Source of the DNA: Azonexaceae bacterium
GTDB lineage: Bacteria; Pseudomonadota; Gammaproteobacteria; Burkholderiales; Rhodocyclaceae
Direction of reading: 5' to 3'
Length of the DNA stretch: 64,000 bases
NCBI GenBank assembly: GCA_013335535.1
Contig: JAAXVL010000002.1
Span: 310,001 to 374,000 of the forward strand
A program made the translations under genes and the position numbers. Below, piece by piece: positions 5,198 through 35,040 of the stretch; within the stretch, counting starts at the first letter, position 1, and the number at the start of each line of letters is the position of its first letter. The notes under the pieces are model-generated. The model had not been told where the DNA came from. It saw only the letters and a program-made list of their open reading frames with translations, and made no database searches.

Positions 5198-5207
5198 AGA
5201 GCGAGTC

Positions 5208-5957: not shown

Positions 5958-5981
5958 CTCCACGCAACAACAAGATGAAGG

Positions 5982-9515: not shown

Positions 9516-9521
9516 ATTGAT

Positions 9522-10097: not shown

Positions 10098-10169
10098 GAT
10101 GTTTCCTTGGCCGGAATTCGACGAATGACCACGCCACCTCTCCGGCCAATCGGAAGGCAGTGTGGTCAA

Positions 10170-10265: not shown

Positions 10266-10420
10266 CTCGGCGGCATTCTAACGATTGCGTCGTTACCCGT
10301 CTATCACGATAGTTAGTCAAACTCCCCGGCGTTACCAAAGCCCTCCTGAAAACATAAGGGCTTTAGGTAAGCATGCCGACTGCCTAAACATGAAAAATCA
10401 GGCAGGCCGGCGCGGTAGGA

Positions 10421-10807
10421 TTATTGAACAACAAAACGCACGGTCGCCACTTTCTTGCCGGGCAGGTTCACTACTGCAACGGCTTTAGCACCAGCGGCAA
10501 TGCCAAATGTACCTTTGGCCTCAAGCGCTTCTCCGGTGGGCGCCAAGGTGACTTCGGTTTTGTTCGCGCCGCTGAGCAATGTGACCTTGGCGGAAGCATC
10601 TTTCACACTCAACGGTTTGTCGTGGTCACGAATATAGAGTTTGATGGTATCCGGCTTGGCAACCAGTTCGAAGTCGAGGTGATTGGCCTCGACAACGACT
10701 CCACCCTGCAAGCCTTTGTGTTCGTGGGCATGGCTATGGCTGTCAGCGGCAAATGCAGCTCCAGAGAGAGCAAGGGAGACAGCGGTAAACAGTTGAATCA
10801 GCTTCAT
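10421..10807 (-). CDS. Small secreted His-rich hypothetical protein
   Basis: Signal peptide MKLIQLFTAVSLALSGAAFAADSHSHAHEHKG; directly downstream of czcA-like gene. Confidence 0.7.
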   Translation of the reverse strand: MKLIQLFTAVSLALSGAAFAADSHSHAHEHKGLQGGVVVEANHLDFELVAKPDTIKLYIRDHDKPLSVKDASAKVTLLSGANKTEVTLAPTGEALEAKGTFGIAAGAKAVAVVNLPGKKVATVRFVVQ

Positions 10808-10831
10808 GGGGATTCCTTTCAGGAAAAGAGG

Positions 10832-13951: not shown

Positions 13952-13963
13952 ATGCGCTACTCC

Positions 13964-15091
13964 TCAGCGGACCTGATTGATGAACGAGGCACCCTGCGTC
14001 GCCACCCGCTCGCCGGCCTTGATGCCGGAGGTGATGGTCACTGAGGTGCCGTCCAGGGGGTCATAGGTGACGAGACGCGGCTCGAACACCTCCGGTGCCT
14101 CCTTGACCCAGACAATGGCTTGGTTCGCCGGATTCTTGAGCACCGAACCGAGCGGAACCTGTAGTCCCTTGATGCGTTGAGCGGTCTGGGCAAAAACCTT
14201 AACCGGCTGACCAACGGCCAGCTTTGCTAAGGCATCCGACTGGCCGGCGAAGGTCATCGGCAAAGCCTGGTCGCGCAGGCTCTTGGCAACCCCCAGAAGC
14301 TTGAGGTCGATACGTTCAGAACCGATAGCGACGGCGGCATTGGCAATACTTTGGGCTTGGACAGCATCGTAAGCCAGTGCCTCAATCTGGAGGCGCGACG
14401 GGTCAACCACCTCAAAGACCAGCTCCCGGGCTTCCAGTACCTGACCGGCCACTGCATTGGCCGAGGCAATAACGCCGGAAACTGGCGCCACCAACGCGTC
14501 CCGATTGGAGAGGCCGGCACCGACCGCTTGCAGTCGGCCAGTCAAGCTGGCTAGCTCGCTCTCCGCGGCTTCAATATCCTTGCGTGGCACCGTATCCGAG
14601 AGCTCTTTGAGGCGTGCCAGACGTTTTTCTGCAAGGGAGCGAGCCGCCTGCAACTCTGCCTGTTGAGCTACTTGATTCGAGCGCTCAATGGCGCCTGAGG
14701 TCGGAACTACGTAGGCCAGAACGTCCCCTTTGCGGACGCGTTGTCCGAGCACCGGAAGCCCTTGCGGCCCGGCCGCAAGCCGACCGGCCAAAGCCGCCTG
14801 GACCTTGCCACCTGCGTTAGGGTCCATCATCACTTTGCCGGCCAGTTCAAAGACCTTCGGCTGTTCGGACTCGGTCACGGTCAGTGTGCGAATGGCCAAC
14901 TGATGCTGGGCTGGTTTCGGTAGGAACACGCGACCATCTGGCTGACGTTTGGGGCCATTGCTAGTCACTGCGGCCGGTGCATCACCATGGTCATGGCCAT
15001 CACCTGCGTAGGCCGCGTTGCCGGAGAGAGCCAACAACATGGCCACTAGGGAAAGACTGACAGCGGGCTTCAGGTTGCGATAGGCGTTCAT
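13964..15091 (-). CDS. czcB: Efflux RND periplasmic adaptor (CzcB family)
   Basis: Signal peptide, GDGHDHGDAPAA metal-binding-like N-terminus, HlyD/RND adaptor core; between pump and TolC-type genes. Confidence 0.9.
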   Translation of the reverse strand: MNAYRNLKPAVSLSLVAMLLALSGNAAYAGDGHDHGDAPAAVTSNGPKRQPDGRVFLPKPAQHQLAIRTLTVTESEQPKVFELAGKVMMDPNAGGKVQAALAGRLAAGPQGLPVLGQRVRKGDVLAYVVPTSGAIERSNQVAQQAELQAARSLAEKRLARLKELSDTVPRKDIEAAESELASLTGRLQAVGAGLSNRDALVAPVSGVIASANAVAGQVLEARELVFEVVDPSRLQIEALAYDAVQAQSIANAAVAIGSERIDLKLLGVAKSLRDQALPMTFAGQSDALAKLAVGQPVKVFAQTAQRIKGLQVPLGSVLKNPANQAIVWVKEAPEVFEPRLVTYDPLDGTSVTITSGIKAGERVATQGASFINQVR

Positions 15092-15663
15092 GCTGCACCT
15101 CCCAACTGACGTGCGCGCTTAACGCGAATGAAGCCAGCTACGGCCAGCAATAGGGCGGCGCCACCGGCCAAGGGTTTCCAGGGAATGCCGGCCTTGCTGT
15201 CTTCCGCGTGATTTTCAGGGTGGATGGCCAACTCGCTGGCCAGGAGGTCCGAGTCGTTACCGGCCACGACGGTCGCCGTGATGGTGATTTCTCCCGATTC
15301 TGGTTTCGTGTCGAGCGTAGCCTCGAATTCGCCTTCACCCACGCTGCTGACCGGGACAGCCTTGCCGCCAAGTTCAAGCTCGAGCTTCGCATCCTTGGCC
15401 GGGCTGTTATCGGCAGCACGGTCCAGATAAAGCGATAGCTTCCTGTCGTTCAGGATGCCAACCAGCTCGTAGGTTTCCGAGATAGCAGTGAAGCGTGGCA
15501 ATGCCGCACCGCTGGCAGCTGCCGGTGCTTCGCCATGGTCGTGGCCATCACCCGCATAGGTGGGCAGGCTAAAGGCGCACAAGAGGAGGACTCCCGCCAG
15601 CGCCTTGTTCAGTTGGGTCATGTTCATGGTGGTTCTCAATTGGAATTTGTTCAGTGGGCTCAT
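15088..15663 (-). CDS. Hypothetical periplasmic protein with C-terminal TM, co-encoded with czcB; true start possibly 15627
   Basis: TYAGDGHDHGEAPAAASGAALPRFTAISETYELVGIL; C-terminal TM AGGAALLLAVAGFIRVKRARQ; 4-bp overlaps on both sides. Confidence 0.72.
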   Translation of the reverse strand: MSPLNKFQLRTTMNMTQLNKALAGVLLLCAFSLPTYAGDGHDHGEAPAAASGAALPRFTAISETYELVGILNDRKLSLYLDRAADNSPAKDAKLELELGGKAVPVSSVGEGEFEATLDTKPESGEITITATVVAGNDSDLLASELAIHPENHAEDSKAGIPWKPLAGGAALLLAVAGFIRVKRARQLGGAA

Positions 15664-16991
15664 TCGGGGAGCAATCCCAGGGATTGGCGAAGGGCCGAAA
15701 TCCCGGCGGCAACGTCGATACGTGCCCGGGTCAGTTGCCGTCCGGCCTCAGTGGCTTCAAGTTCAATACGTAGTCGGGTCGGCAGGTCGGTCTCGCCCAA
15801 ACGGAATGACTTTTCGAAGAAGCTCTGGGATTCCTGGGCAAAGCGAGCACGTTTTTCTGCGGCGCTAAGGCGGCTCTGGGCAGCCAGGACCTGGGCTCGG
15901 GCCGACTCGATGCCGGAGATGATGCGCGTTCGCTCCAATTCAGCAGACGATTCGGCATCCAGTGCTTCGGCTCGGGCAGTGGCGCGCCGTGCCTCGGCAC
16001 GAGGGCCGGCGCCAAAGGGAAAGCGGATACCAAGGGTGTAGGTCTGGTCGGTATCGGCGCCAGCCTGGGCGCGCGTATGCGTCGTGGCAATCAGGATTTC
16101 AGGATTCGCCCGCGTCCGCACACTCGCCAGTTCCGCAGCACGCCAAGCCACAGTTGCCCGGTCCAGCAATTCGACCAAGGCGGGATGGGTTGCCGGCTCA
16201 TTTAGGGCTTTCGCGTCCGGCATCGGCTCAAGGGCGATGGCTTGCGTATGAGGGGGCAGTAACGCCTGGCCGATTAGGCTGCGCATTGCATTGAGCGCAA
16301 TAGCACGGTTACCTTGCGCCTCGGCCATCCCGGCTTCAGCCTGGGCCAGCAGCCCGTTGGCCTGATGCTGGTCCGCCCGGGAAAGGTCGCCGGCCTTGAA
16401 GCGCCGGGTAACATCATCCGCGAGCTTCTGAGCGTTGGCTTGGCGTTCCGTGGCCAACGCCAATTCGCCTTCGGCACGGTAGTAGTTCCACCACCGCTCA
16501 CGAACGACTTCAGTCACTCGCAGTTTGGCACCCAGGAACCGACTATCCAGGGCCTTGGCTGTTGCCTCGGCGAGGTCGCCAGAACGGCTACGTTCGCCAG
16601 GTAACCACATGGGAATGGCCACGCCGATTTCGTATTCGCGGCTGCCGTTGTTGGAGCCCATCTTGTCCGATTTGCCCTGAAGCTCCAGGGCGGCGGGTTC
16701 GACTGTCCAACTGGAGGCTGCGGCACGTGCTGCGTTAACCGCCTCCTGACGAACGGATTGAGAGCGCGCCTCCGGCTGGCGACTCCAGGCAAGCTCAAAG
16801 GCTTCCTTGAGCGACAGCGGTGCTTTTTCTGTCTGAGCCGTTTCTGGTGACGGCTGCCTGACTATGGTCGGAGCCTGCGCCCAGGCAGTCGGCGTAAGCG
16901 CTAGCCAGGATGAAACGAGGGCTGGCAGTAGCCTATTAAGCCAGGATGAAACGAGGGCTGGCAGTAGCCTATTAAGTTTGTTTCGGTACAT
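15660..16991 (-). CDS. czcC: TolC-family outer membrane efflux protein (CzcC family)
   Basis: OEP domain; signal peptide contains a duplicated 12-aa block. Confidence 0.88.
   Translation of the reverse strand: MYRNKLNRLLPALVSSWLNRLLPALVSSWLALTPTAWAQAPTIVRQPSPETAQTEKAPLSLKEAFELAWSRQPEARSQSVRQEAVNAARAAASSWTVEPAALELQGKSDKMGSNNGSREYEIGVAIPMWLPGERSRSGDLAEATAKALDSRFLGAKLRVTEVVRERWWNYYRAEGELALATERQANAQKLADDVTRRFKAGDLSRADQHQANGLLAQAEAGMAEAQGNRAIALNAMRSLIGQALLPPHTQAIALEPMPDAKALNEPATHPALVELLDRATVAWRAAELASVRTRANPEILIATTHTRAQAGADTDQTYTLGIRFPFGAGPRAEARRATARAEALDAESSAELERTRIISGIESARAQVLAAQSRLSAAEKRARFAQESQSFFEKSFRLGETDLPTRLRIELEATEAGRQLTRARIDVAAGISALRQSLGLLPE
16904..16975. repeat. Exact 36-bp tandem duplication within czcC signal-peptide coding region
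   Basis: gccaggatgaaacgagggctggcagtagcctattaa occurs twice head-to-tail. Confidence 0.97.
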
Positions 16992-17121
16992 CCGATTCTT
17001 CTCCAGTAAAACATTGGGGATGGAATCGGCGAGGAGCCGTCTCTGAAGACCACGCGCAAGGACGTAGTTACGCCTAGTGGGCGTTCAGTCGGAATGAGGG
17101 GTGCCTAAACCCGCCTCGCCG

Positions 17122-17475
17122 TTAGGCGAAGGCGTGCCAGTTGGGGCGTTCTGGCTGAGTCTGAGGTGGCGTGGGAAGGGCGAAGTTCGGTGTTGTCACC
17201 GACACAGTAGCCAATGTCAGCGGTTCTCTACGCTGGATGTCGCTGTACAAGGCACCGCAGAATGCATGGCATGCTTGGCAATCATTATCGCCCATGCCTG
17301 GTAGCTGATTGTCAGTGTTGTCTGACGAATCGCCCGCACCATGATGCTCATGTGTGTGATGGCCAATATGGAAGGTTGCGGGTGTTTTCTCGTGCTCGCA
17401 ATACGGCGCCGCCGCAGCCCAAACGGCTTGCAGCGGAAACAGCACCAGGAAGAAGATGGCAATCCAGCGACGCAT
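17122..17475 (-). CDS. czcI: CzcI-like / DUF2946-like small secreted His/Cys protein
   Basis: MRRWIAIFFLVLFPLQAVWAAAAPYCEHEKTPATFHIGHHTHEHHG...CQACHAFCGAL; located just upstream of czcCBA. Confidence 0.65.
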   Translation of the reverse strand: MRRWIAIFFLVLFPLQAVWAAAAPYCEHEKTPATFHIGHHTHEHHGAGDSSDNTDNQLPGMGDNDCQACHAFCGALYSDIQRREPLTLATVSVTTPNFALPTPPQTQPERPNWHAFA

Positions 17476-17541
17476 AAGTCTGGAGTATAGCGTATGGCGT
17501 TTTATATCTTGCTTAAGGGCAGATTATTGTGGCGAGGGTCA

Positions 17542-17874
17542 CTAGGACGTTTCCGGCTGCAAGGCGATGACTGTCATGCCGACCAAGGCAATTGCTGCTC
17601 CCAGTATGTCCCAGCGGGTCAAGGAAATGCCGTCGACAACGCGTAACCATGCCAAGGCAACCACGATGTACATGCCACCGTAGGCAGCATAGGTTCTGCC
17701 TGCGGCAGTCGGATGCAAGGTCAATAGCCAGGCGAACGCCGCCAACGAAAGCGCTGCCGGTATCAGCAAGAGCGCAGTCTTCCCCTGTTTAAGAACAAGC
17801 CAAGGCAAATAGCAGCCCACGATTTCGGCAACTGCCGTGACAGCGAAGAGCAACGCGAGACGAAAAATATCCAC
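17542..17874 (-). CDS. YnfA/UPF0060 family small membrane protein
   Basis: [19 protein letters not shown]...[24 protein letters not shown]. Confidence 0.9.
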
Positions 17875-17899
17875 TTTTCGAAGTCCAATCAGAAAACGG

Positions 17900-20140
17900 T
17901 TATTTCGCCTGTTTCACGCCTTTCAGCAGGCGCAGTCCGTTGAACACAACCAGCAAGCTGGCCCCCATGTCGGCGAAGACCGCCATCCACATCGTGGCGT
18001 TGTCGAAAACGGCCAGGACCAAGAAGACAAGCTTGATGCCCAAGGCCAGGGTGATATTCTGCCAGAGCACGGTATGGGTACGCTGCGACAAGCGGATTGT
18101 TTCCGGCACCCGCCGCAGGTCATCGTTCATGATGACCACATCAGCAGCCTCCATGGCGGTATGCGTACCCGCACTACCCATGGCAAAACCAATGCTTGCG
18201 GTTGCCAATGCCGGCGCGTCATTGATGCCGTCCCCAACCATGGCAACCTGTTTGCCTTCGCTGGCCATTTCACGAATGGCATCCAGTTTTTCCTGGGGGA
18301 GTAGATTGGCACGGACCTCCGCAATACCGGCCTGGGTAGCGATACTGGATGCAGTCGCCGGATTGTCACCCGTCAGCATGACCGGGGTTACGCCCAGCGC
18401 CAACAACTCACGGATGGCCTCCTGGGAGCTGGCTTTGATGGTGTCTGCCACCGCAAACAGGGCCAGGACTCTCTCCTTGTCGGCCAGAACGGCGACGGTA
18501 CGTCCCTGACGTTCGTGCTCGAACATCAAGGCTTCCAGTTCGGTCGAGCATTGATTGCGGTCGTGAATCCAGCGGTGGTTGCCGAGGACATAATCCTGCC
18601 CTGCTACGCTCCCTTGGACGCCGCGCCCGGCTTCTGCCGCAAAGCCATCGACGTCCAATGGCTCAGAAGCCCCAAGGCCGGCTGCGACAGCCTTGGATAC
18701 CGGATGGTCAGAACGGGCGGCCAGAGCGCTGGCAATACGCAGAATCTCGGTTTCTGGCAGAGCGTGAGCAAGAACAACTTGGGCGACGAGCTTGGGCCGG
18801 CCTTCGGTGACTGTGCCCGTCTTGTCCAAGGCAACGGTCGTCAGCTTGCGAGCCTCTTCAAGGTACGCACCGCCTTTAATCAGGATACCTCGCCGGGCAG
18901 CAGCAGCCAGTCCACTGACCACGGTGACGGGCGTCGAGATAACAAGGGCGCACGGGCAAGCAATTACGAGCATGACCAGTGCCTTGTACAGGCTGGCCAT
19001 CCATGTCCAGCCGAGCATCAGGGGGCCACCGATAGCCACACCTATCGCCAAGACAAATACGGCCGGGGTGTAGATGGCGGCGAACCGGTCAACAAACCGC
19101 TGCGTGGGCGCCCGGGAGCCTTGGGCTTCTTCGACGGCATGAATGATGCGGGCCAGTACGGTATCGCTCGACGGCGCAGTCACTTCGAATTCCAGTGCGC
19201 CGTTTTGGTTGATGGTGCCCGCGAATACATCATCACCCGGGCCCTTCTCCACGGGCATGCTTTCACCAGTAACCGGTGACTGGTCGACGGCGCTGTTGCC
19301 GGTTTTGACGATGCCATCTAATGCGAAGCGCTCGCCAGGGCGGACCCGGACCCGGGCACCCACCAGAATTTCCTTGGCGGGAACTTGAATCCAGGCGCCG
19401 TCTGGCTGAAGCACCTCGGCTTGCTGTGGCGACAATTCAAGGAGGCTCTTGATGGCGTTTCGAGCACGGTCAACAGCCCGTGCCTCAATGAGTTCAGCCA
19501 GAGCGTAGAGCGCCATCACCATAGCCGCTTCCGGCCATTCGCCGAGAAAGAAGGCACCGGCAACGGCAACCGACATTAGGGCATTGATGTTGAGTTTCCC
19601 ACTCAGCAGAGAGGAAAGACCTTTGCGAAACACCGAGAATCCAGAAAGGGCGATGGCAATCGCTGCAACGCCCATCCCAAGCACTTTCCAGAAAAATGTT
19701 TCAGGGGCCGCGAATGCGAGGAGCTCAGCTACCGTCGCCACAACCAGTGCTGCAACAAGACGGATGGCTTCATTCTTGAGGCGCTGCCGTCCTTCCTCCG
19801 GTGCCACGGGTTGCACGAGGCTTTCCGATTTGAATCCAGCTTTGCCGATGGCAGCCACGACATCGGCCCATAGCTCTTTCGGGGCCTCGATGCTCAACAC
19901 CCGACCAGGCAGGTCAAAGACCAGGCGACGAATTGCAGAAAACTGTTCGAGGGCGGCACGAATCTGACCTTCCTCGGTCGGGCAATCCATCGCCGGAATA
20001 CGCAGCAGTAAAGTATCGCCATCCGGTGCCGGCAAAGTCATGCTCTGGGCCTCTATGTTTGGGGAAGAACTTGCGTGGGGACAACTGCACGAATGGGGTT
20101 CTGCATCCTGACGCTCATTGGGTAAATGGTGTTCGGTCAT
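17900..20140 (-). CDS. cadA: Zn/Cd/Pb-translocating P1B-type ATPase (CadA/ZntA)
   Basis: HMA-like N-terminus ([15 protein letters not shown]), CPC motif ([12 protein letters not shown]), [19 protein letters not shown]. Confidence 0.92.
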
Positions 20141-20187
20141 GAACTATCTCGCGTCCTGTGATTGCCATATAGATAGGCATATTAGAA

Positions 20188-20208
20188 ACCCTGTAGCTAC
20201 TATAGAGT
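20188..20208 (-). promoter_or_regulatory. MerR/CadR-type operator and long-spacer promoter for cadA
   Basis: Minus strand TTGACTCTATAGTAGCTACAGGGTTTCTAATAT: dyad ACTCTATAGTAGCTACAGGGT inside a ~19-21 bp spacer between -35 TTGACT and a -10. Confidence 0.85.
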
Positions 20209-20246
20209 CAACAACAACTGTAATTGCCTCTATCCAGGAGAAATTC

Positions 20247-20705
20247 ATGAAGATTGGCGAGCTTGCCATGACTGCCCTGACACCGGTTGAGACCATTCGC
20301 TACTACGAGCGGGAAGGGCTGCTACCCAAGCCAGGGCGCAGTGACGGCAACTATCGTATTTACGAAGCCCAGCATTTGGAGCACCTTCAATTCATTCGCC
20401 ACTGCCGAAGCCTCGACATGTCGTTGGCTGAAGTCCGGGAGCTACTAATGCTGAAGAACTCCCCGCTGGAAAGCTGTGGCAACGTGAATCGGCTGCTGGA
20501 CGAGCACATTAGTCACGTTTCGCGGCGCATCCGCGAGCTTCGGCAGCTGGAGAAGCAGCTTAAGGTTTTGCGGCGGCAATGTGGGGACGGAGGTGCCGTA
20601 AACGATTGTGGCATTTTGGCAGAGTTGGCACATGCATCGCAGGACGGGGTTGGTGAGACGAAAAAACGCAAATCCCACCTCAAGGCTGTTCACCATCCAA
20701 CTTGA
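20247..20705 (+). CDS. cadR: MerR-family transcriptional regulator (CadR-like); start corrected to 20247
   Basis: MKIGELAMTALTPVETIRYYEREGLLPKPGRSDGNYRIY; divergent from cadA. Confidence 0.9.
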   Translation: MKIGELAMTALTPVETIRYYEREGLLPKPGRSDGNYRIYEAQHLEHLQFIRHCRSLDMSLAEVRELLMLKNSPLESCGNVNRLLDEHISHVSRRIRELRQLEKQLKVLRRQCGDGGAVNDCGILAELAHASQDGVGETKKRKSHLKAVHHPT

Positions 20706-23273: not shown

Positions 23274-23466
23274 GCTTCATCGCAATGCATTAGGTCGCAT
23301 TGAACGAAGCGAAGTTGGGCTGAACCTCAGCACGCTATGGCTTATTGCTGACGCAATGGAGATAACGGCATCCGAACTTGTCCAGAAGGCTGAAATTTTG
23401 GCTACAACTAAAGAAAATCAAGCCTTAACAGCGCTTCCATCCCGACGTGGCGATAATGCACCTTAG
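23185..23466 (+). CDS. XRE-family HTH transcriptional regulator
   Basis: LGVVIREARKRLNISQEKLAESAKLHRNALGRIERSEVGLNLSTLWLIADAM. Confidence 0.8.
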   Translation: MTRTEALGVVIREARKRLNISQEKLAESAKLHRNALGRIERSEVGLNLSTLWLIADAMEITASELVQKAEILATTKENQALTALPSRRGDNAP

Positions 23467-23830
23467 GTAAGTATTGAACTGCACGGCGGGCCGCAGCAAT
23501 ATCGCCGACCATGAGGACTTGGATTTGCGTGCATGCATGCCTGCCGTATAGCTAAAGGTCCAGTCGGGTCGGCGATTACCGGAGAGAGCCTCGATAACCA
23601 GTGGACACTATGAGCCTTGGCTCTTGTGCCCCGTAATTGCATCACCAAGAGCCAAATCGTCCAGCATTTTCTCCAGAATTGGCCGGCGCTCACGGTCGTC
23701 CCCTTTCTCCCTGGTGAGGGTCTTACCAATAGGGGCTCCTCTCTATTGGTGAAACTCAGGGGTGTGACCTCGATATCAAGGGTGCGTCTCAGCGAGTCGT
23801 TCGGAATCCCATGCTTCCATAGGTTGGCTT
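23440..23830 (-). pseudogene. Decayed duplicate of the 3' end of the adjacent RecD-like helicase gene
   Basis: Collinear similarity to 24335-24725 (e.g. ctgcacggcgggccgcagc, gagccttggctcttgtg, accaagagccaaatcgtccagcatt); reading frame broken. Confidence 0.88.
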
Positions 23831-24293: not shown

Positions 24294-26564
24294 TTATGTC
24301 ACACGGTTAATGCTAAGGGCGTTCCTCAAAAGTGCTCCCAGACCAACGTGGCGATGATGTGCCTTAGGCAAGGCTTCCACTGCACGGCGGGCCGCAGCGA
24401 TGTCGCCGACCAGAAGGACTTGGGCTTGAGCGCGCGTGACTGCGGTATAGATTAGGGTTCTGTCGAGCAGGCGACTACCGGAAAGAGCTACGATGACCCG
24501 TGGCCACTGAGAGCCTTGGCTCTTGTGCACCGTAATGGCGTAACCAAGAGCCAAATCGTCCAGCATTTCCTCCAGAATCGGCCGGCGCTCACCGTCGTCC
24601 CATTCCACCCAGGCGAGGGCCTGGCCAATCGGGGCGCCTACATCGTTGGTGAGATTCTGGGGTATTGCCTCGATTTCAATTATGCGTCCCAGCGAACCAT
24701 TCTGAATCCCGCGCTCCCATAGGTTGCGGGTGCATATAACAGGGTCTCCCAATCGAAATCCGGTATCAACAGCTTGGTCGAATTCGTCGTTCCATATCAG
24801 TAGTGGCTGTGCATCTTCGGCCAGGTCGAGCTGGCAAATGCTATTCAAATAGTGGATGCCATCAGGTCCGGCACGGCGTGCCGACAGGATTTGGGTGTCG
24901 TCCGGCGCTTCTCGGTAGAGGCGAAGAACTGTATCCGCCAAGGGACAGACCTGTTCTCCATCTCGCATGAACGCGCCGGTTTTTGTGGGGATAAACGCTA
25001 TAGGTGCGCGCTCATCGTCTGTCAGTGCTGGCCAGATGCCTTCTCGAATAGAAAGGGCGGCGGCGGCAATTTGCCCGCCATGTCGCTTCACTGTAGTCAG
25101 TTCGATACGGGGAATGGCTCGCTCAGCGACCAGTGTATGCAAAACAAGGCCCGGGCCAACAGGCATGAGTTGCGCTGGGTCGCCGACCAGCACCAGCCGA
25201 ACGTGCTCGGGAATTAGCTCACAAAGCCTATACATCGTGATGATATCGACCATGCTGGCTTCATCTACAACTACGACAGTCGGGCCATTTAGGTCATTAT
25301 CTGAGGTTTTCTGGATGAAGGATGCAAGGGTGTTTGCCGGGCGGTCAGTGGCTTCTTGAAGTCTCTTGGCAGCGCGACCGGCCAAGGCTACCTGGAGTAT
25401 CCGGATACCAGCCGCATCATAGGTTTTGTATAAGGCCTTTAAGACGGTGGTCTTGCCCACGCCGGCGCCGCCAGTAATGAGCATCAACGGGTGCATTACT
25501 GCGTCAATGACAGCCGCTCGTTGTTCATCATTCAGTGAGTAGCCTTCCTCTCCTTCAAAGTCGTGCAGTATTCCTTCTATCTGATAGCTGTCTAGCAATG
25601 GTGGCGCGGTGTAGGTCAATCGGTTCGCTAATGCTTTGGCGACAGCGGCTTCCATGACATAGGGGCCAAGTGAATGGACTGTGTGGTCGGCGCTGACCAA
25701 GTAACTACCGTTGCTGAGTCCGGCGGCCAAAGCCTCCGCGACCAAAGGGCGCCAGCGCAGCCCTGTTGCTTGGCTACCCAAGACAGAAGCCAAGCGTACC
25801 GTCAGCATGGGTAAGGTTGCAACGGTGTGGCCATCGCCAAATAAACGGTACAGCGCTTCTTCAATGGCACCTTGAAGCCTGCGCGGGTCGTTCTCCGCGA
25901 TGTGGAAATGCTCTTGGGCAATCTTGTCAGTTTCTGCCCATCCAGAACAGAAGCTGAGCAGGCGATAGGGGTCCTGCCCGATGCCTTCAGCCGTTTCTGG
26001 GCCGAAGAAAGCTAGCAACTTTCTACCAATTGAGGCACTAAAGCCATAGGTTTGAAGCCAATGTAATGTTCGGGCGTCGCCATAGGTTCGCCAGGCTTCA
26101 ACCACTTGGCGTGCGCTCTCTTGGCTGAGCACTGTGGCAAGCCCATTGATGTCGCCGGCGTCCAGTACGTCATATAGTTGGTCCTGAAAGGTCTCCCATA
26201 AGCGACGCGCCTTCACGCGGCCGATGCCGCGAAATGCTTCACATTCGGCCATCAAGGTAATGATGTGCTCGCCGGAAGGTAGTGCGAGAAGGAGGGAGTC
26301 CGCTTCAATCTGCTCCTCGGTGACCCGGTAGCCATTGACCGTAATCTCGTTGGAGTGTTGATTCCCGGTGACGCGCCACCATTGGCCGACCTGGACGGCC
26401 GTGGCTCCTAGGAGGTTTCCTTTTGCGCGAACCACGTAATGACGGCGGGCATCTAGGACCTCGCCTGTCTCAGTAATTGGGGCTGCCGAGAAGATGCAGC
26501 CTCCCAGTCCTGTCGGGTTCTGGCTCCGAATGCTGGTGACGCGCAGAAGCAGGTCTGGACTCAA
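24294..26564 (-). CDS. RecD2-like AAA ATP-dependent DNA helicase
   Basis: Walker A LMLITGGAGVGKTTVLKALY, Walker B TVVVVDEASMVD, HhH-like GIGRVKARRLWE, C-terminal LGYAITVHKSQGSQWPRVIV. Confidence 0.88.
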   Translation of the reverse strand: MSPDLLLRVTSIRSQNPTGLGGCIFSAAPITETGEVLDARRHYVVRAKGNLLGATAVQVGQWWRVTGNQHSNEITVNGYRVTEEQIEADSLLLALPSGEHIITLMAECEAFRGIGRVKARRLWETFQDQLYDVLDAGDINGLATVLSQESARQVVEAWRTYGDARTLHWLQTYGFSASIGRKLLAFFGPETAEGIGQDPYRLLSFCSGWAETDKIAQEHFHIAENDPRRLQGAIEEALYRLFGDGHTVATLPMLTVRLASVLGSQATGLRWRPLVAEALAAGLSNGSYLVSADHTVHSLGPYVMEAAVAKALANRLTYTAPPLLDSYQIEGILHDFEGEEGYSLNDEQRAAVIDAVMHPLMLITGGAGVGKTTVLKALYKTYDAAGIRILQVALAGRAAKRLQEATDRPANTLASFIQKTSDNDLNGPTVVVVDEASMVDIITMYRLCELIPEHVRLVLVGDPAQLMPVGPGLVLHTLVAERAIPRIELTTVKRHGGQIAAAALSIREGIWPALTDDERAPIAFIPTKTGAFMRDGEQVCPLADTVLRLYREAPDDTQILSARRAGPDGIHYLNSICQLDLAEDAQPLLIWNDEFDQAVDTGFRLGDPVICTRNLWERGIQNGSLGRIIEIEAIPQNLTNDVGAPIGQALAWVEWDDGERRPILEEMLDDLALGYAITVHKSQGSQWPRVIVALSGSRLLDRTLIYTAVTRAQAQVLLVGDIAAARRAVEALPKAHHRHVGLGALLRNALSINRVT

Positions 26565-26992
26565 CGCGGTAGCCGTCCGGTCATTGAAAGTGCATCACGC
26601 AACAGGGTAAATTTGCTGAGTTGTCGCTTCAATTCTTCAGTCTCGGCCCGCAGGCTGGCGTTCTCCTGCTCCATGCGTTTTAGCCGCTCAGAATCCAGGG
26701 TCGCCCTCAGATTTCCCTGCTCGCGCATAGGTATTGCTGCCGAGAGTGATGGCTCGGCAGAGGGAGGGAGAACGCCTTTCTCTCGCAGGTCGGCTTCTAG
26801 CTTGTGAAGCGCGGCCTTGATGCGCGGGTTCTGCGTTAGGGCCGACTTGGAAAAACCGCACTCCTTGGCGACTTCGGTACGAGAGAGGACTCCCCGGCTG
26901 GTCATCGCTCGAAAGTCGCCATCAGATTTGCCGGCGACCCAAGTGAAAAACGTATTGGCATTCAACTCTGCCAACTGTTGACCGTTTGCCAT
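26561..26992 (-). CDS. Small HTH plus coiled-coil protein of the recombinase operon (VPA1267-like, tentative)
   Basis: VLSRTEVAKECGFSKSALTQNPRIKAALHKLEADLREKG then heptad-like ERLKRMEQENASLRAETEELKRQLS; overlapped with neighbours. Confidence 0.6.
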   Translation of the reverse strand: MANGQQLAELNANTFFTWVAGKSDGDFRAMTSRGVLSRTEVAKECGFSKSALTQNPRIKAALHKLEADLREKGVLPPSAEPSLSAAIPMREQGNLRATLDSERLKRMEQENASLRAETEELKRQLSKFTLLRDALSMTGRLPR

Positions 26993-27471
26993 CAGGGTTT
27001 CCCGGGAAGCACAAATATATTGGTGGGCGTATTGTTCCGCGAGCGAGCGTTCGCTCTCTTCAGTTTGTTAAGTTCGGCATTGAGCTCCAGAATGCGCGCA
27101 AGGAGCGTGGCATTTTTGGTTTGGGCAAGAGCAAGTTCCCTCCGGAGCTTGGCGGCTTCCTCTCGCCGTTTGGTCAAGACGTCTTGAAGTCGCGTAGGTA
27201 TGTCTGGGTCGCTCTTCAAGGCCAGAATGCGGTCGCGGACGTTCGGGTACTTGCAGCCTTTGTGGCCAATCAGCGTTCGGGAGTGACCAGCCTCTTTGGC
27301 TACGCTCGAGATGGTGATTCGCAGGGTGCCCTGTTTTGCTTGGGTCTGTAGGCTTTTGTCCTTTGGTTTGCCAGATTGAAGGCGTGCAAAGGCATCAATG
27401 AAATGCTGTTCAATTTCGTCCTCGGCGGGAACTCCCGCGCCCATTTTGTTTCGACTTGCGGGCTTAACCAT
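26992..27471 (-). CDS. Small HTH plus coiled-coil protein (GinD/GmtX-like, tentative); start corrected from 27564 to 27471
   Basis: TISSVAKEAGHSRTLIGHKGCKYPNVRDRIL HTH-like, then TRLQDVLTKRREEAAKLRRELALAQTKNATLLARILELNAELNKLK coiled coil. Confidence 0.65.
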   Translation of the reverse strand: MVKPASRNKMGAGVPAEDEIEQHFIDAFARLQSGKPKDKSLQTQAKQGTLRITISSVAKEAGHSRTLIGHKGCKYPNVRDRILALKSDPDIPTRLQDVLTKRREEAAKLRRELALAQTKNATLLARILELNAELNKLKRANARSRNNTPTNIFVLPGKP

Positions 27472-29530
27472 TCTCTTGGGCTCCTTCGTCAGGAATAGGT
27501 AAGCCGAGAGTCCGCAGGATTGAGGCTGATTGCCGCATGCGTTCCCGAGCAACCATGAACTCATTAAAATGGTCTTTGCCAGCAGCCTTCAGAATGCTCG
27601 CGTTTTTCTGGTGGCGGGCTTGCCAGAACTCGATGTGCTCGTGGTCCACGGCGAAGCATTTGCAGCCACTACACACTGTAGGATTGCGCTGTGCATAGTT
27701 CGGCTCTCCCTTTAACCAGGGGCTGGTTTGTCCCATAGTGTGGCACCGTGATTCACTTGGATTTATGGTCATGAAGCATTTTCCATGGTCGGCAAACCAT
27801 ATGCGCAAATCGCCTTGGGTGACCCAGGCTTCCATTTTTTGATAGGAGGTAGCTTCGTCGCTATCACCAATGACGCTGCGAAGCTTTTCTCGGTGCTCAC
27901 GAACAAGGTCAGCCATGCCGCCGGCAATGATGGTGCTGCTTCTGGCCTGTTCGAGGAGAAACTTTACGGTTCTTTGGCGACGGACTGATTCGATACTGTC
28001 GAGAAGTTCGGGGTCGTTGCCGATATAGCCTTCCTCGGTCATGGCCAAAGACATGTGTTTGAAGTGCTGAGAAATTGCTGGCAACATCTTAGGGTCGGTA
28101 CGCAGGATGTACAGAGCATAAGTCTTGCGCCACTGGTGGGTTCGTATACCTTCGCCCGATTTGTAGGGAGCCAAGTCTATCGAGCCAGAGGCAGTACGTA
28201 AGGTTTCGGGCAAGTCGGATAATCCACCATACACCCCCACGAAGTTCTTCATTTGCTTGGCAATGGTTTCCCGCGTGGTCGTGCTGGTCATGTCCAGGTG
28301 GCGTGACAAACAACTGCTGCCTGCTGGCTTGACCAGCAGCCACGGCAAGTTGCTACCCTTACGCCATGGCTCGAAGAGCCGTTCCAGGCCCAACAGTGCG
28401 CTAACTGCCGGCGGTAGATAGGAGGACCCCACCGGTCGCATCCCAATCACCCAACTCATCATTGCGCCATCATGAATCTTGGTAACCTGTGAGTTTAGAA
28501 AGAACAGTTCGTTGAGCCCGGTTTTTGACTGTTGGATTGAGACGCACGAGGGCAACCCAGTGGCAGCGTCAATGCCGCTCCTCAGTGCTGCTACTTCGCT
28601 AAGTCGAATGCCGGTGGTGCCTTGGATTAACGTCACACAGGCTGATGAGGCGTGCGCAACCAGTGCTCGCAAAGCGGAATCCAATCGAGTGCGTACCCCG
28701 CCCGTATTTCGAGAGTAATCAGCCTCCGTGCCAAGGCCGTCGCGCCAAGGTTTACTTTCGTTTGGGATGACCGTGAACCGAAATTCGCGGAGCGCGGTCT
28801 CGATAGCTCGAACGCCAACTTCCTTGGACGTCTCAAGGTTCAGATATAAATCGCGTAGTCGAATGACGTCGTCAATCGGGTGGCCCATCCAGCGGATGCA
28901 CTGAGCGAGTATTCGCAAGGCCACGCAGTCAGGTAACGGCTCAATCCAGCCGTTTTCTACCGTTGCAGCTTCCTTGGCAACCTTATCGACGCTGTTGCCG
29001 TCATAAGGAGGCTCCGGCATAGGTGTGACATTTGCCTCGCTCAGCGCGGCCGATTGTCGATAGATTGTGCCGAGAATTTGCAGAGAAAATTGAAATGACC
29101 CGGAGGCAACCTCTCCTGATTTCTTTATTCGAATCAGTCCCAGTAGGTGGTCGTGAAATTCCCAACTTGCTTCAGTATCGAGCTGCGAGAATGATTCATA
29201 GTTGCTTGCAACCATCCATCGGAGCAGCGTACTGAGTTGCTGCCGAAATCCGCGCGAGATGGTTACAGGGTCAAGCCCTCTGCCGGAGCGAGAGTCCGTA
29301 AGCAAGGACCAAGTGAGTTTCCGGCAGTCTTCCAATAAAGTGCTCCACTGAGGTGAAAGCAGTGTACTTTCGCCGTCTATGCGCAGGTTCCAGTCGAACA
29401 TCAATTCATAGTCAGCTAATCCGATTTTTATGTTTTCGAACCACCATTTATCGTCATGCCAAAGACTTCTGGGCGAAACTCGAGCCACCGCCCTCTCTGA
29501 ATCTGGTAGTAAATGTAAGCGTGCCAGCAT
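27464..29530 (-). CDS. Large tyrosine recombinase-like protein (688 aa; third recombinase of trio)
   Basis: TTGIRLSEVAALRSG (Arg I), RTHQWRKTYALYILR (HxxR), ISQHFKHMSLAMTEEGYIG (His...Tyr); Cys-rich C-terminal segment CSGCKCFAVDHEHIEFW. Confidence 0.8.
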   Translation of the reverse strand: MLARLHLLPDSERAVARVSPRSLWHDDKWWFENIKIGLADYELMFDWNLRIDGESTLLSPQWSTLLEDCRKLTWSLLTDSRSGRGLDPVTISRGFRQQLSTLLRWMVASNYESFSQLDTEASWEFHDHLLGLIRIKKSGEVASGSFQFSLQILGTIYRQSAALSEANVTPMPEPPYDGNSVDKVAKEAATVENGWIEPLPDCVALRILAQCIRWMGHPIDDVIRLRDLYLNLETSKEVGVRAIETALREFRFTVIPNESKPWRDGLGTEADYSRNTGGVRTRLDSALRALVAHASSACVTLIQGTTGIRLSEVAALRSGIDAATGLPSCVSIQQSKTGLNELFFLNSQVTKIHDGAMMSWVIGMRPVGSSYLPPAVSALLGLERLFEPWRKGSNLPWLLVKPAGSSCLSRHLDMTSTTTRETIAKQMKNFVGVYGGLSDLPETLRTASGSIDLAPYKSGEGIRTHQWRKTYALYILRTDPKMLPAISQHFKHMSLAMTEEGYIGNDPELLDSIESVRRQRTVKFLLEQARSSTIIAGGMADLVREHREKLRSVIGDSDEATSYQKMEAWVTQGDLRIWFADHGKCFMTINPSESRCHTMGQTSPWLKGEPNYAQRNPTVCSGCKCFAVDHEHIEFWQARHQKNASILKAAGKDHFNEFMVARERMRQSASILRTLGLPIPDEGAQENG

Positions 29531-29533
29531 TCG

Positions 29534-31396
29534 TTACTCCAGGTCAGGAAGGGGCGACAAAGTCAGCTCGCTGGCGGCAGTCAGTACGTGATGGTCATTG
29601 AATAGTGGAAGCCAGTAGTCATCCAGTCGTTTGGCGACGTGCGCCCAACAGTCAAGCCAGCGCCGTGGTGGTAACGTAGTCTGTGCCGCTATGACCGCAT
29701 CACGCAATTGAATGGCGCGAGCCGCCGCGTATGGTGATTGTGTATTTATGCATGCAAGAGGGCAGCGTGGGCACTGACCAAAGGCTTGGCAAAGCCGGCC
29801 GTCAATCTCACTCGGCATCGGAGAGCTAAAGGGGTCCAGGCAGTAATAACCGGGCGTCGCGCACCCTTTGTCGGCTTCAAACGGTTCCTTACGAGGGTCA
29901 GGAGCAGTACCTTCCGTGCGAACGAGTCGCTCTCGAGTGAGCATGATTGCGGCAAGTGCCTCGTTGTTGCGCGTTCGGGCTGCATCCGAGGTGTAGTGCT
30001 CAAGTAAAACTTGAGGCGAACGTTGGCCACCTGCAGTTTGAACAGCCTTGAGGTCGCCTCCCGTCATCTCATGAATTTTGTCCAGAGATGTTGTGCGTAG
30101 CTGCGCCAGTGCCAAGTGAGGGATTCCATGGTCTTCAAGAAAACGCGTTAATGAGGCATACCAGAGCGAGCCTGCCTTGTGAGAGCCTCCGCTATAATCC
30201 ATTGCACGCATTGTTGTATCTTCAGAGTGGTCAGCGCTGCGAGTTAGCATCAAGAACAGCCGGTCCTGGTATTTCACAGTGGCTATAACCCGTAATGTTT
30301 TGGCCCATTCCGTAATAAATGAAACCAACACGTCCGGCCCAATGGGGTTTCCCACGGCAAATGTCCGCATCTGCTTTCTCAAGGAGCGGCATTTGGGTGG
30401 CCGGAACTGAATGCGTTTGCCGCCAAAATGGTCGGGGTATTCAATATCTTTAAGATTCAATTCGCGCAATACATCAGGATTGAAGGCTGTCTGAAACGCC
30501 ATGAGAATTACAAATGGGATAAGTTCCCGAGCAGAGGGAGCGAGTGGTTGACGAAGCTCAGTGAACGTCATCTGTAGGCTCCGATGAGCCAACCACAACT
30601 GTCGGTCGTTTTCACGAATCCAGTCGGAGTTTGGTATCCAGGTTTGATATCGGTTCTCATATAACCAGCGCCACTCATCCGGTGTTTTTGGCATTTTGGT
30701 TGGGTGCGGTGGTGATTCGTCTAGGGCATTCTTGGTAGCCCACGCGGCCTTAACTTTGCCCATCGTGTTCAGGACTTCGTCTTGGGACGCTAATAACAAG
30801 TGCAGCAAGCTGTTGTCGTCGATAATTTGACGTGGCGTTATTTTCCGTGAGCAACCAGTCCAAACATGGGTCGGAATGGAAATGCTTGGCGTCAGTCGAG
30901 GCTTCCAGCTTTTTGAGGATTTAAGGATTTTTATTAGGATACGTAGTGCAGTAAGTAACATGGTGCGCGTTGTCTGGCTGACAGGGGTGCCATCCACATT
31001 TCTTTTCAGGTCGAGCCACCTAATAAAACCATCAACCCAAGCAGTGTCAATGCTCTTTAAATCCGACTCACCTTTTGGGTCGGTGAGCCGTAGATAGGCA
31101 AACAATCCGCGGTCTAGGTCGCCGATGCGACAAGATACGCTGTTGCTTGCGGCCTTCTTGGCGTATTCCGAAAGGGCAAAGACAAATGCTTCAGCAATAT
31201 GCGGGTAGTCAAGCCAGTGCGAGCAGTCCTTTTTCCAACCGTCACCAGCAAAATCAAGAGTATTATCAGTATGCTCAATGCGTAAATTTTGCAAGAGAGG
31301 GTGCTTGGTTGGACCGAGTGGAATTACGTTTCTCTTTCCGTCCGCTCCAAGCTGGTCGTAACGGCTTGGCATCTTGCTGCTTTTGATTTCATCCAT
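29534..31396 (-). CDS. Tyrosine recombinase-like protein (620 aa; second recombinase; GmtZ/GinB-like, tentative)
   Basis: Integrase-like C-terminal fold: LALAQLRTTSLDKIHEMTGGDLKAVQTAGGQRSPQVLLEHYTSD; Cys-rich C-terminus CLDPFSS...LCQAFGQCPRCPLACINTQSPY. Confidence 0.78.
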   Translation of the reverse strand: MDEIKSSKMPSRYDQLGADGKRNVIPLGPTKHPLLQNLRIEHTDNTLDFAGDGWKKDCSHWLDYPHIAEAFVFALSEYAKKAASNSVSCRIGDLDRGLFAYLRLTDPKGESDLKSIDTAWVDGFIRWLDLKRNVDGTPVSQTTRTMLLTALRILIKILKSSKSWKPRLTPSISIPTHVWTGCSRKITPRQIIDDNSLLHLLLASQDEVLNTMGKVKAAWATKNALDESPPHPTKMPKTPDEWRWLYENRYQTWIPNSDWIRENDRQLWLAHRSLQMTFTELRQPLAPSARELIPFVILMAFQTAFNPDVLRELNLKDIEYPDHFGGKRIQFRPPKCRSLRKQMRTFAVGNPIGPDVLVSFITEWAKTLRVIATVKYQDRLFLMLTRSADHSEDTTMRAMDYSGGSHKAGSLWYASLTRFLEDHGIPHLALAQLRTTSLDKIHEMTGGDLKAVQTAGGQRSPQVLLEHYTSDAARTRNNEALAAIMLTRERLVRTEGTAPDPRKEPFEADKGCATPGYYCLDPFSSPMPSEIDGRLCQAFGQCPRCPLACINTQSPYAAARAIQLRDAVIAAQTTLPPRRWLDCWAHVAKRLDDYWLPLFNDHHVLTAASELTLSPLPDLE

Positions 31397-31632
31397 TATT
31401 TTTGATTCGCGATGAGTATGTCGGCTAGCTCTCTGGCTGCTCGTTCTGACATCTGAGCTTCAAATTCGCGGGTGACTTGCAGGTGAGTATTAGTCGTGGT
31501 TTCCATGTTTATATGGCCAAGACGTACTTGAAGGTTCTTCCACGGTTCGGAATTGCCACTCTGTTTTTCGGCTAGGTATTTCCCTATGCTAACGGGGAGG
31601 CGCTGCATGTTGCTCTCTCCTTTAATTGTCAT
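31396..31632 (-). pseudogene. Tandem C-terminal fragment duplicate of the 445-aa integrase (78 aa ORF)
   Basis: YLAEKQSGNSEPWKNLQVRLGHINMETTTNTHLQVTREFEAQMSERAA vs YLAEKQSGNSEPWKNLQVRLGHSSLETTINTYLRVASEFEAQLSDRAA. Confidence 0.88.
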
Positions 31633-32966
31633 TTCGGCCTTACGCTAAGCATGTCAGTAAGAAAGCCGGCGGCTCGGTCTGAGAGCTGCGCTTCAAATTC
31701 GCTGGCGACCCGAAGGTAGGTGTTAATCGTGGTCTCTAACGAAGAATGCCCAAGGCGTACTTGAAGGTTCTTCCAAGGTTCGGAATTGCCACTCTGTTTT
31801 TCGGCTAGGTAGCTCCATACGGTATAGGTGTGTCTCAAGCAGTGTGGAGAGAATGCTGGTACTTGTTCAACGTAGCTTTGCTGAGTTTCGGGGTTAACCT
31901 TCGTCACTGTTCGCAGTAGTCCGGCCGATTGGCCTTCGCCGGCCGCAGCGGCAATTACAGCCTGGTGAAACGCATCATGAAAGCTTCCGTATTGCGCGGG
32001 CTTTCCCGCGTTATGTCGAGAAGCAGTGCTATTCACAAAAAGCGCTACAGGGTCTCGACCTGTGATAATCCCTCTGCGGCGCCCCTCGGCAATATCCGTC
32101 TTTCGCTCGTGGTTTATGTACCAGTGCAACCAATTTAGGACGGCGTTGGGCAGCTCAACCTTGCGCACTTTATTTCCTTTGCCAACGATTCGCAGGAAGG
32201 TCAAGCCTGCAGGGTTGCCGGGGTCCTCTGGGCTTAGCTCCATAATGCTGTGGATAGTTAATTGGGTGGGTTCGTCGGGCCGCATACCGGTATGAAGACA
32301 AACTTCGGCCCAGAGCCGATTTCTCACTGGTCTTAGGTCATTTTTGTCTTGTCCTGGGAGCGGGCCTAGTGCTTGCGCTACTAGACGGTATTGGCGCTTG
32401 TTAAAGCCACGAACCTCATCGTCGATGGCAACTTGGCCCTTTGGCATTAGTTCGTTTCTTCGCGCTGTCCGCTTTTTCCGGATATGAGCAAGTGCGTTTT
32501 GGTCTATCGCATATCGCCCATCCGTTTCGACATCGCCGACGTCGACTGCCGTACAACCCCTTGAATTAAAGTAGCGGTAAAACTCCAGCACTGTTCCAAT
32601 ACGGCGCCGAATGGTCTTATTGGCATATGCCTCATTAGTGCGAGGACTTACCAGGGTTTGCATTAAGTAAACGTAATTTTCAAGGTCACCGCGCTCCACT
32701 TGGTCCCAAGCTAAATTGAAGTGCCATAAATACTGATACCAGTCACGAAGGTCGTCGGCCTCCGCAAGAGCGGTATTTGCCACGTAGCGCCTGCTGTGGT
32801 TACGGTGCTGCTCCCATAAAAACTGAAAAACAGGCTCAAGGATTTCCTGCGTTTCACCTGATACTAGGAAGGGATAACCAACTGGTAATTGGGACTGTTT
32901 TAGCTCCGATTCGCTAAGTCCAGTAAGGCTTTCGAGCGATACGGCGCGTACAACTGAAATGTTCAT
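31629..32966 (-). CDS. Site-specific tyrosine integrase/recombinase (445 aa; first recombinase; GmtY/GinA-like, tentative)
   Basis: HTGMRPDEPTQL, SPHCLRHTYTVW, VRLGHSSLETTINTYLRV = R...HxLRH...H...Y catalytic set. Confidence 0.9.
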   Translation of the reverse strand: MNISVVRAVSLESLTGLSESELKQSQLPVGYPFLVSGETQEILEPVFQFLWEQHRNHSRRYVANTALAEADDLRDWYQYLWHFNLAWDQVERGDLENYVYLMQTLVSPRTNEAYANKTIRRRIGTVLEFYRYFNSRGCTAVDVGDVETDGRYAIDQNALAHIRKKRTARRNELMPKGQVAIDDEVRGFNKRQYRLVAQALGPLPGQDKNDLRPVRNRLWAEVCLHTGMRPDEPTQLTIHSIMELSPEDPGNPAGLTFLRIVGKGNKVRKVELPNAVLNWLHWYINHERKTDIAEGRRRGIITGRDPVALFVNSTASRHNAGKPAQYGSFHDAFHQAVIAAAAGEGQSAGLLRTVTKVNPETQQSYVEQVPAFSPHCLRHTYTVWSYLAEKQSGNSEPWKNLQVRLGHSSLETTINTYLRVASEFEAQLSDRAAGFLTDMLSVRPK

Positions 32967-33021
32967 TCTGATAGAGGCTCGGGGTTAGTGTAGAGAACAG
33001 CAACTTGCAAAATATTTTTTT

Positions 33022-33047
33022 TGATGTATAATTAACGTTTATAATCA
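33022..33047. promoter_or_regulatory. AT-rich inverted repeat upstream of recombinase operon (candidate operator/promoter)
   Basis: TGAT-g-TATAA ttaacgt TTATAATCA, followed by palindrome AACATGTT (33047-33054); ~55-80 bp upstream of integrase start codon. Confidence 0.5.
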
Positions 33048-33243
33048 ACATGTTACGATGGATTATAGGCGTATTCTTCAGGATTGGGAACAAATTTGCG
33101 CCTGCGAAATGGATTCGCTGATTTTCAGAAATGAATAGATGTAATTTGCCCTACTCGGTGCAAACTCATGAGTTATCAGGTGCGGGGAGGTTGCCCTCTG
33201 TCACGAGGGATTCCTAAGAGAACGGTTTAACCACCGGATATAA

Positions 33244-35040
33244 CTGTTCAAGAACGCGCTGGTTGTTCTGCTGACTTTCCAGGCGGCGCAATGGACGGCG
33301 CTCAAGCCCGAACTGCTGGCCAACCTGGCGGCGGGCGTGTTCATCCTGCCCTTCTTCCTGTTCTCGGCGACGGCCGGGCAACTGGCCGACAAGTACGACA
33401 AGGCGACACTGGCGCGGCTGGTCAAAGTACTCGAAATGGTCATCATGGGCGTCGCTGCCGCCGGGTTCTTCATGCACAGCCTGCCCGTGTTGATGGGCGC
33501 GCTGTTCCTGCTCGGCTGCCATTCGACGCTGTTCGGGCCGGTCAAGTACGCGATCATGCCGCAGCATCTGCACAGCGATGAACTGGTCGGCGGCAACGCG
33601 CTGATCGAGGCCGGGACGTTTGTCGCCATCCTGATCGGTACGCTGGCCGGCGGCCTGCTCGCCGGTTCGGTCGAGCATCCGGCCTGGATTGCGGTCGGCG
33701 GTTTTGTCGTGGCCTTCGCCGGCTATCTGACCAGCCGGGGCATTCCAACCGCGCCGCCGCCGGTGCCGGAACTCACGATCAACCTTAACCCGCTGTCCGA
33801 AACCTGGCGCAACATCGCTTTCGCCAAGCAAAACCGCACGGTTTTCCTGTCCATCCTTGGCATCTCGTGGTTCTGGCTCTACGGGGCGCTCTTCCTCGCC
33901 CAGTTCCCGGCCTACGCCAAGTTTGTGCTCGGCGGCGGCGAGTCGGCGGTAACCATGCTGCTGGCGATTTTTACGGTCGGTATCGGCATCGGCTCGATGC
34001 TTTGCGAGCGGATGTCCGGCAAGCATGTCGAAATTGGCCTGGTGCCTTTCGGCTCGATCGGCCTGACGCTGTTCGGCCTCGACCTCTACTTCGCCTCGCC
34101 GGTCGGCCTGCCTGGTACGACGCCGCATGAACTCCTCGCATTGCTCAGTATCCCGGCCATCTGGCGCGTGCTGTTCGACCTCATGATGCTCGGCGTCTTC
34201 GGGGGCTTCTTTATCGTGCCGCTCTACGCGCTGGTCCAGCTGCGCAGTTCGCCGGAACACCGGGCGCGCATCATCGCCGCCAACAATATCCTCAATGCCT
34301 TGTTCATGGTCGTCGGTGCCCTCGGGGCAGCCAGCCTGCTCGGCGCCGGGCTGTCGATGCCGGCCTTGTTCGGCCTGGCAGCGCTGCTCAATGCGCTGGT
34401 GGCGATCTACATCTACGGGCTGGTGCCGGAATTCCTGCTGCGTTTCGTCGCTTGGCTACTGGTCAAGGCGGTGTACCGGCTGCGCGCGGAGGGCATCGAG
34501 CATATCCCGCAGGAAGGCGCCGCCGTGCTCGTCGCCAACCATGTCAGCTTCGTCGATGCGGTGGTGATCATGGGCGCGTCGCCCCGGCCGGTACGCTTCG
34601 TCATGGACCATCGCATTTTCAGAACGCCGTTGCTCGGTTTCATCTTCCGCCATTGCGGGGCGATTCCCATCGCCTCGGCCAAGGACGACCCGGCGCTGCT
34701 CGAAGCGGCTTTCGCCGCGGTCGGCAAGGCGCTGGCCGAGGGCGATCTGGTTGGCATCTTCCCCGAAGGCCACATCACCCGCGACGGCCAGTTGCAGACC
34801 TTCCGCCCCGGTATCAGTCGCATCCTCGCTGCCAATCCGGTTCCGGTCGTGCCGATGGCGCTCAGTGGCCTGTGGGGGAGTTATTTTTCGCGCGTGGACG
34901 GCGAGGCGATGAAGACACCGTTCCGGCGCGGTGTGTTCTCGTCGATCAGCCTCCAGGTCGGGGCGCCGCTTTCGCCGGAAGACGCTAGCACGGGGCATTT
35001 GCACAATGTCGTGGCAGCGTTGCGTGGCATGCGGTTGTGA
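33244..35040 (+). pseudogene. 5'-truncated MFS transporter / 1-acyl-glycerol-3-phosphate acyltransferase fusion (LplT-Aas-like)
   Basis: Frame LFKNALVVLLTFQAAQWTALKPELLANLAAGVFILPFFLFSATAG continues upstream of the ORF-track start (33337 is GTG) until a TAA at 33241-33243; C-terminal acyltransferase NHVSFVDAVVI and FPEGHITRDG. Confidence 0.85.

Follow-up and report, generated by a model that had tools for sequence, protein, structure and literature searches.

Which kind of mobile element carries the compact minus-strand operon of this Azonexaceae bacterium, and does the RecD-like helicase encoded in it belong to the element's machinery? In the window (the whole analysed stretch of 64,000 nucleotides), the original prediction had placed seven packed open reading frames (ORFs) with junctions of a few base pairs at the edge of a mobile island, compared their organisation with that of GInts and Gamma-Mobile-Trio (GMT) islands, and regarded the helicase as an addition. 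All seven ORFs are present at the predicted places, and their tight junctions were confirmed. They follow the order intA, a 78-aa ORF, tfp, intB, srap, VPA1267 and recD (Table 1), and are joined by ATGA (intA/78-aa ORF), TAATG (78-aa ORF/tfp), a 3-bp gap (tfp/intB), an 8-bp overlap (intB/srap), TGATG (srap/VPA1267) and TTGA (VPA1267/recD), where the TTG start of recD overlaps the VPA1267 stop codon. The srap ORF, listed as 190 aa (26992-27564), likely starts at 27471, giving 159 aa.

Table 1. Features of the island and its host flank, in window coordinates.
Feature	Position	Strand	Evidence or content
Cargo region	1..20705	.	Two RND metal-efflux clusters, two P-type ATPases, CadR
RND metal-efflux cluster, CusBA/CzcA-like	468-5197		Cargo
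CopA-like P-type ATPase	5982-8264		Cargo
Second RND metal-efflux cluster	10832-16991		Cargo
ZntA/CadA-like P-type ATPase	17900-20140		Cargo
CadR	20118-20705		Cargo
Broken remnant of a second RecD C-terminus	23423..23755	-	44-64% identity to RecD 642-747, with stops
RecD2-like SF1B helicase, 756 aa	24294..26564	-	TTG start; 377 bits to TIGR01448, short of its equivalog cut-off (500)
VPA1267-family protein, 143 aa	26561..26992	-	NCBIfam NF040697, 174 bits (cut-off 90); 2e-51
Srap-like helix-turn-helix/coiled-coil accessory protein, 159 aa	26992..27471	-	BLASTP to Srap of the pAQU1 SE
IntB, large tyrosine recombinase, 688 aa	27464..29530	-	R309, H465, R468, H492 and Y502 invariant; C-terminal Cys cluster
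Tfp-like degenerate recombinase, 620 aa	29534..31396	-	Tyrosine-recombinase fold; alignments, AlphaFold model, profile match
78-aa ORF, diverged tandem duplicate of the 3' end of intA	31396..31632	-	125/151 aligned nt identical
IntA, tyrosine recombinase, 445 aa	31629..32966	-	R-H-R-H-Y intact; Pfam Phage_integrase 6e-12; profile match to SE IntA 96.9%
Promoter-like site towards intA	33062..33090	-	Consensus scan only
intA-proximal terminal repeat (motif C), TTATATCCGGTGGTTAAACCGTTCTC	33218..33243	-	Matches TTATGTCGGGTAAAACTGTTCTC of the distal end in inverted orientation
Host 3' part of the interrupted aas-type gene	33244..35040	+	From codon 29; empty-site alignments; MFS_1 and Acyltransferase Pfam matches

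Among the recombinases, Tfp has lost Arg I and His II and kept Arg II and Tyr across 12 relatives, and its alignment contains four invariant cysteines. The best PDB match of its AlphaFold model (mean pLDDT 70) is XerH (5jjv, E = 7e-5), which is also the entry reported for the CDS2 protein of SE-6945 (PMC10214605). Searches with padloc and phrogs returned nothing informative for the two large recombinases. The Srap-like protein is 34% identical over 139 aa to Srap of the pAQU1 SE (E = 3e-5), and the predicted membership of the 143-aa protein in the VPA1267 family held. Its predicted model comprises a helical domain and a 50-residue helix, for which the fold search gave no significant PDB match. 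The 78-aa ORF is a repeat of the C-terminal 64 residues of IntA (66% aa identity) with the catalytic Tyr changed to His, is absent from a sister island described below, and is probably a remnant rather than a distinct gene family. The duplicated intA 3' end on one side, together with the broken RecD C-terminus on the other, suggests past recombination with a related island. An outward promoter-like site at 33005-33032 (+) faces the host gene fragment and recalls the outward promoter reported for a GInt.

Alignment to the empty sites of relatives, from which the junction positions are taken, delimits an island of 50,576 bp (C32:292668-343243). Its left end lies 17.3 kb (17,332 bp) to the left of the window, at the junction C32:292667/292668, and its last base is position 33243, exactly the edge predicted. 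The island interrupts an aas-type gene, encoding a lysophospholipid transporter/acyltransferase, after codon 28 at GACAAC|CTGTTC. The host fragment to the right of 33243 continues in frame without the first 28 codons; a search for the 5' end of the gene inside the window found none, as the left end of the island lies outside it, and the missing part is on the same contig, 50.6 kb upstream, ending at C32:292667. Judged by the empty site in 19 congeners, where the intact gene reads ...GGCGCCTTCAACGACAAC|CTGTTCAAGAACGCG... or a close variant, the two host halves join exactly across the island. A blastn search with the ends of the island against relatives gave no match. Beyond the junction, the host flank at 35828-37500 contains long, low-complexity Ala/Arg/Ser-rich repetitive reading frames, and a yybP-ykoY manganese riboswitch (107.7 bits) lies at 10101-10273 (-) amid the metal-resistance cargo.

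A full-length homologue of the large recombinase occurs in 2 of 150 genomes, namely the window's own and one congener (G803). Since 19 congeners carry the gene intact and cargo differs between the two islands, comparison between genomes indicates that the island is real and very probably mobile, in line with the original prediction, rather than a gene order fixed at one locus in all relatives. The G803 island, of about 17.4 kb, occupies the same aas codon and contains these six genes, identically ordered (IntA, Tfp, IntB, Srap, VPA1267 and RecD being 83, 80, 83, 78, 91 and 91% identical at the amino acid level, respectively). With dN/dS values of 0.12-0.17, all six genes are under purifying selection, and such recurrence of six of the seven genes argues that the operon is not a product of chance. 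The dS values of recD and VPA1267 (0.25-0.37) are lower than those of the other four genes (0.70-0.90), so this pair was probably exchanged more recently. An ORF at 22614-23273 (-) without a family match, 78% identical over 144 aa in G803, perhaps also belongs to a conserved core. Congeners nearer to the window's genome than G803 (93-94% versus 82% identity in the host protein) lack an insertion at this site, a pattern that speaks for two independent insertions rather than vertical inheritance. The distal 6-mer of G803 is ATATTC as against TGCTTT here, with host flank and motif C' identical; this difference alone would not prove independent insertion, as dS of the host aas gene between the two island genomes is itself 0.81.

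The ends of the island are imperfect inverted repeats. Read inwards, the distal end begins with TGCTTT followed by TTATGTCGGGTAAAACTGTTCTC, and the two ends align from the first base once this 6-mer is skipped; in an anchored null, 20,000 randomly drawn segments of the island all scored lower. The same geometry recurs elsewhere. A scan with an IntB alignment yielded 43 related loci, and the named relatives of the operon belong to Massilia, Janthinobacterium and Duganella (Betaproteobacteria), to Alphaproteobacteria and to a Methylomonas plasmid. In Massilia aurea (L046), Massilia sp. Bi118 (L047), M. kyonggiensis (L049) and Janthinobacterium lividum (L050), the island splits a PA0069-family radical-SAM gene at one and the same codon (NPYRGCEH), directly upstream of intA; the boundary was set where the bases agree with the uninterrupted reading frame. 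In each of the six islands examined, the terminal repeats align best at a distal offset of 6 bp, and the 6-bp footprint lies on the C' side only. An inverted-repeat search of the Methylomonas element found no clear ends. In Duganella lactea (L051) and Massilia rhizosphaerae (L052), operons of the window's type lie by DnaE2-like and DNA-glycosylase-like genes, both named from their translations.

Taken as a whole, these features are best explained by a site-specific integrative element of the SE/Tn554 mechanistic class, an assignment we consider very likely from sequence comparison. The known SEs (SE-6283, SE-6945 and SE-Pda04Ya311 on pAQU1) share the intA-tfp-intB-srap order, the inverted terminal repeats (imperfect, 13-19 bp) and insertion into a target gene, and in SEs the donor's 6 bp likewise end up beside motif C' (PMC10214605). 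As in SEs, the operon stands at one end of the island, IntA and the large IntB retain RHRY, and the second protein is degenerate. In profile comparisons, the SE-like operon of a Pseudomonas (L115) was matched by IntA (99.7), Tfp (97.4), IntB (99.5) and Srap (96.3), with controls in the wrong position reaching at most 36. The authentic SE used, that of pAQU1, was matched by IntA (96.9), IntB (96.6) and Srap (78.7); since the SE profiles are single sequences, these probabilities are indicative. Tfp did not match this one authentic SE (5.4), and its link to SEs runs through the Pseudomonas SE-like operons. The proteins described here are nevertheless very divergent from those of SEs, Srap alone giving a significant BLAST match. 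The island further differs in its additional VPA1267 and RecD genes, in its new target aas with a translational overlap, and in having relatives in Betaproteobacteria, where, as in Alphaproteobacteria, the published survey found no Tfp or Srap homologues (PMC10214605).

Based on this geometry, we propose the following hypothetical mechanism, in which (i) a single-strand exchange by IntA and IntB would connect the two terminal repeats, with Tfp and Srap serving as structural or directionality factors; (ii) a circle would form that holds the 6 bp flanking motif C in the donor, the donor copy probably remaining where it was (copy-out); (iii) upon insertion into GACAAC|CTGTTC, the carried 6 bp would be laid beside motif C' as a footprint; (iv) from the host promoter and start codon, a stub of 48 codons would then be expressed, ending in a TGA that overlaps the ATG of a spare target gene. 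The frame would survive whatever 6 bp come in, unless they bring a stop codon, since the footprint is 6 bp long. The ends, the target, the geometry of the footprint, the spare gene and the conservation are read directly from sequence; the strand bias and the copy-out step are inferred, as are expression of the spare gene and the role of the helicase. Tyrosine recombinases usually excise and reinsert their elements conservatively, and the island might likewise be cut out and pasted in like an ICE or a phage, the 6-bp difference reflecting ordinary heterology in the crossover region. In GInts, cuts are indeed staggered by 6 nt, and the empty site is restored by some of these elements (PMC5385486). 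We consider this unlikely, as the extra 6 bp are distal to intA in every one of the six islands, as reported for SEs and Tn554, and no Xis-like gene was recognised.

The spare gene that the stub overlaps lies at the distal end of the island, to the left of the window (C32:292727-294688), and was thus not seen in the original prediction. It is a complete aas-type gene of 653 aa with its ATG at island position 60, 59 bp inside the end. Its identity to the host gene that the island interrupts is about 50%, and no other gene found in 229 genomes of the class exceeds 50% identity to it. The first search, of 24 congeners, revealed no further full-length aas copy. The frame of the host stub, 48 codons long, crosses the 6-mer and ends in a TGA that overlaps the spare ATG (ATGA), an overlap present in both aas islands, and a ribosome-binding-like sequence, GGAGAG, stands just 5' of this ATG. 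No promoter-like site was found near the start of the spare gene, which is therefore likely driven by the host promoter. In G803, one G fewer in a G-run (around codon 112) breaks the frame of the spare gene, which may reflect real decay or a sequencing error. Three of the four radical-SAM genomes carry a complete spare radical-SAM copy besides the two host fragments; it adjoins srap in M. aurea, and in the other two genomes 4-5 kb separate it from the distal end. A paralogue screen with 10-kb flanks had detected only the M. aurea copy; the whole-genome search added those of Massilia sp. Bi118 and M. kyonggiensis, and found none in J. lividum despite the same ends.

This last island, the one of the six that lacks a spare gene and a natural test case for the need of one, would be expected if the spare aas were accidental cargo and VPA1267-RecD a passenger module or one for defence; candidate defence systems, too, include RecD-like proteins, and most related operons lack RecD. 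Such a reading appears distinctly improbable to us. The spare gene matches the broken one in five of the six islands, across two different targets, and in the window's genome it sits immediately inside the junction in translational overlap with the stub. VPA1267 and RecD, for their part, lie inside the operon and are conserved even though the islands differ in cargo. A spare target gene is not in itself a new idea, given the precedents of SE-6283, which is inserted in bcp and carries bcp (PMC9345347), as the present island carries aas, and of Tn552-II with its target-gene-like ORF tgl (PMC12486829).

The survey of RecD co-occurrence that the original prediction had called for gives a divided answer. 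The helicase is found in the operons of the window, G803 and M. rhizosphaerae (in the last, window-type recombinases are followed by another helix-turn-helix/coiled-coil protein and RecD), and the other operons of the window's type lack it. To this extent it is an addition, and it is not required for the class, since VPA1267 and RecD are missing from four related islands that share the geometry. It did not arise here, as a RecD-like gene regularly follows VPA1267 (NF040697) in GMT plasmid islands, whose VPA1267-linked helicases are about 31% identical to the present RecD, and also does so in the SE-like Photobacterium operon L032 and in all six other genomes of the same class that gave a clear match. 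By these comparisons, VPA1267-RecD is an accessory of this recombinase type and a module common to island families. Derived from the copy-out model, its most likely role would be that of a conserved helper that unwinds DNA at a single-strand bridge or at a nicked intermediate while the element replicates or is resolved; the helicase may also have a defence or stability role.

The shared module raises the question of whether the island is itself a GMT island or a GInt, as originally suggested. GMT plasmid islands carry VPA1267 and then the RecD-like helicase in one operon with the same 1-bp and 4-bp overlaps, one of them (L030) with Czc-type metal-efflux cargo as here, and GInts occur in Betaproteobacteria (PMC10214605) and share three recombinase-like genes and a small coiled-coil protein at one end, with variable cargo. 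Even so, we regard either membership as highly unlikely. GmtX, GmtY and GmtZ had no NCBIfam or profile match in the operon (profile values of at most 2), which holds the four-gene SE-type recombinase set instead. In GInts (ginABCD), the degenerate recombinase is the third (GinC), whereas it is the second here, as in SEs (PMC5385486, PMC10214605), and their ends are direct imperfect repeats of 10-11 nt (PMC5385486) rather than inverted repeats with an offset of 6 and a one-sided 6-bp footprint. Neither a helicase nor a target-gene copy was found in the text of the GInt description (PMC5385486). Compared with these published descriptions, gene order and end repeats do not fit a GInt. Tn554-type transposons resemble the island in bringing a donor flank of 6-7 bp into one end of the new copy and, in Tn552-II, in the tgl gene, but have three genes (TnpABC) without the Tfp present here and reside in Gram-positive hosts. 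A RIT, which needs three active recombinases of 315-410 aa, does not agree with proteins of 445, 620 and 688 aa of which one is degenerate.

SEs have been reported as restricted to a subset of Gammaproteobacteria (PMC10214605). The six islands analysed here, whose ends are exactly placed and bear the diagnostic footprint, fall outside the protein families described so far, and four of them are in named Betaproteobacteria. The helicase module common with GMT islands would be tied to a mode of transposition whose replication step is the main open question. Replacement of the target gene, published for one SE (bcp) and one Tn554-type element, looks to be a recurring arrangement, and one that can be tested. 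We tentatively suggest, as a possibility short of an expectation, that these islands form a class that takes over its target gene instead of destroying it, in which the two-codon footprint keeps the frame, the stub overlaps a divergent replacement, and a subset uses VPA1267-RecD2 to power replicative copy-out. If so, each insertion would swap a housekeeping gene of the host for a foreign allele.
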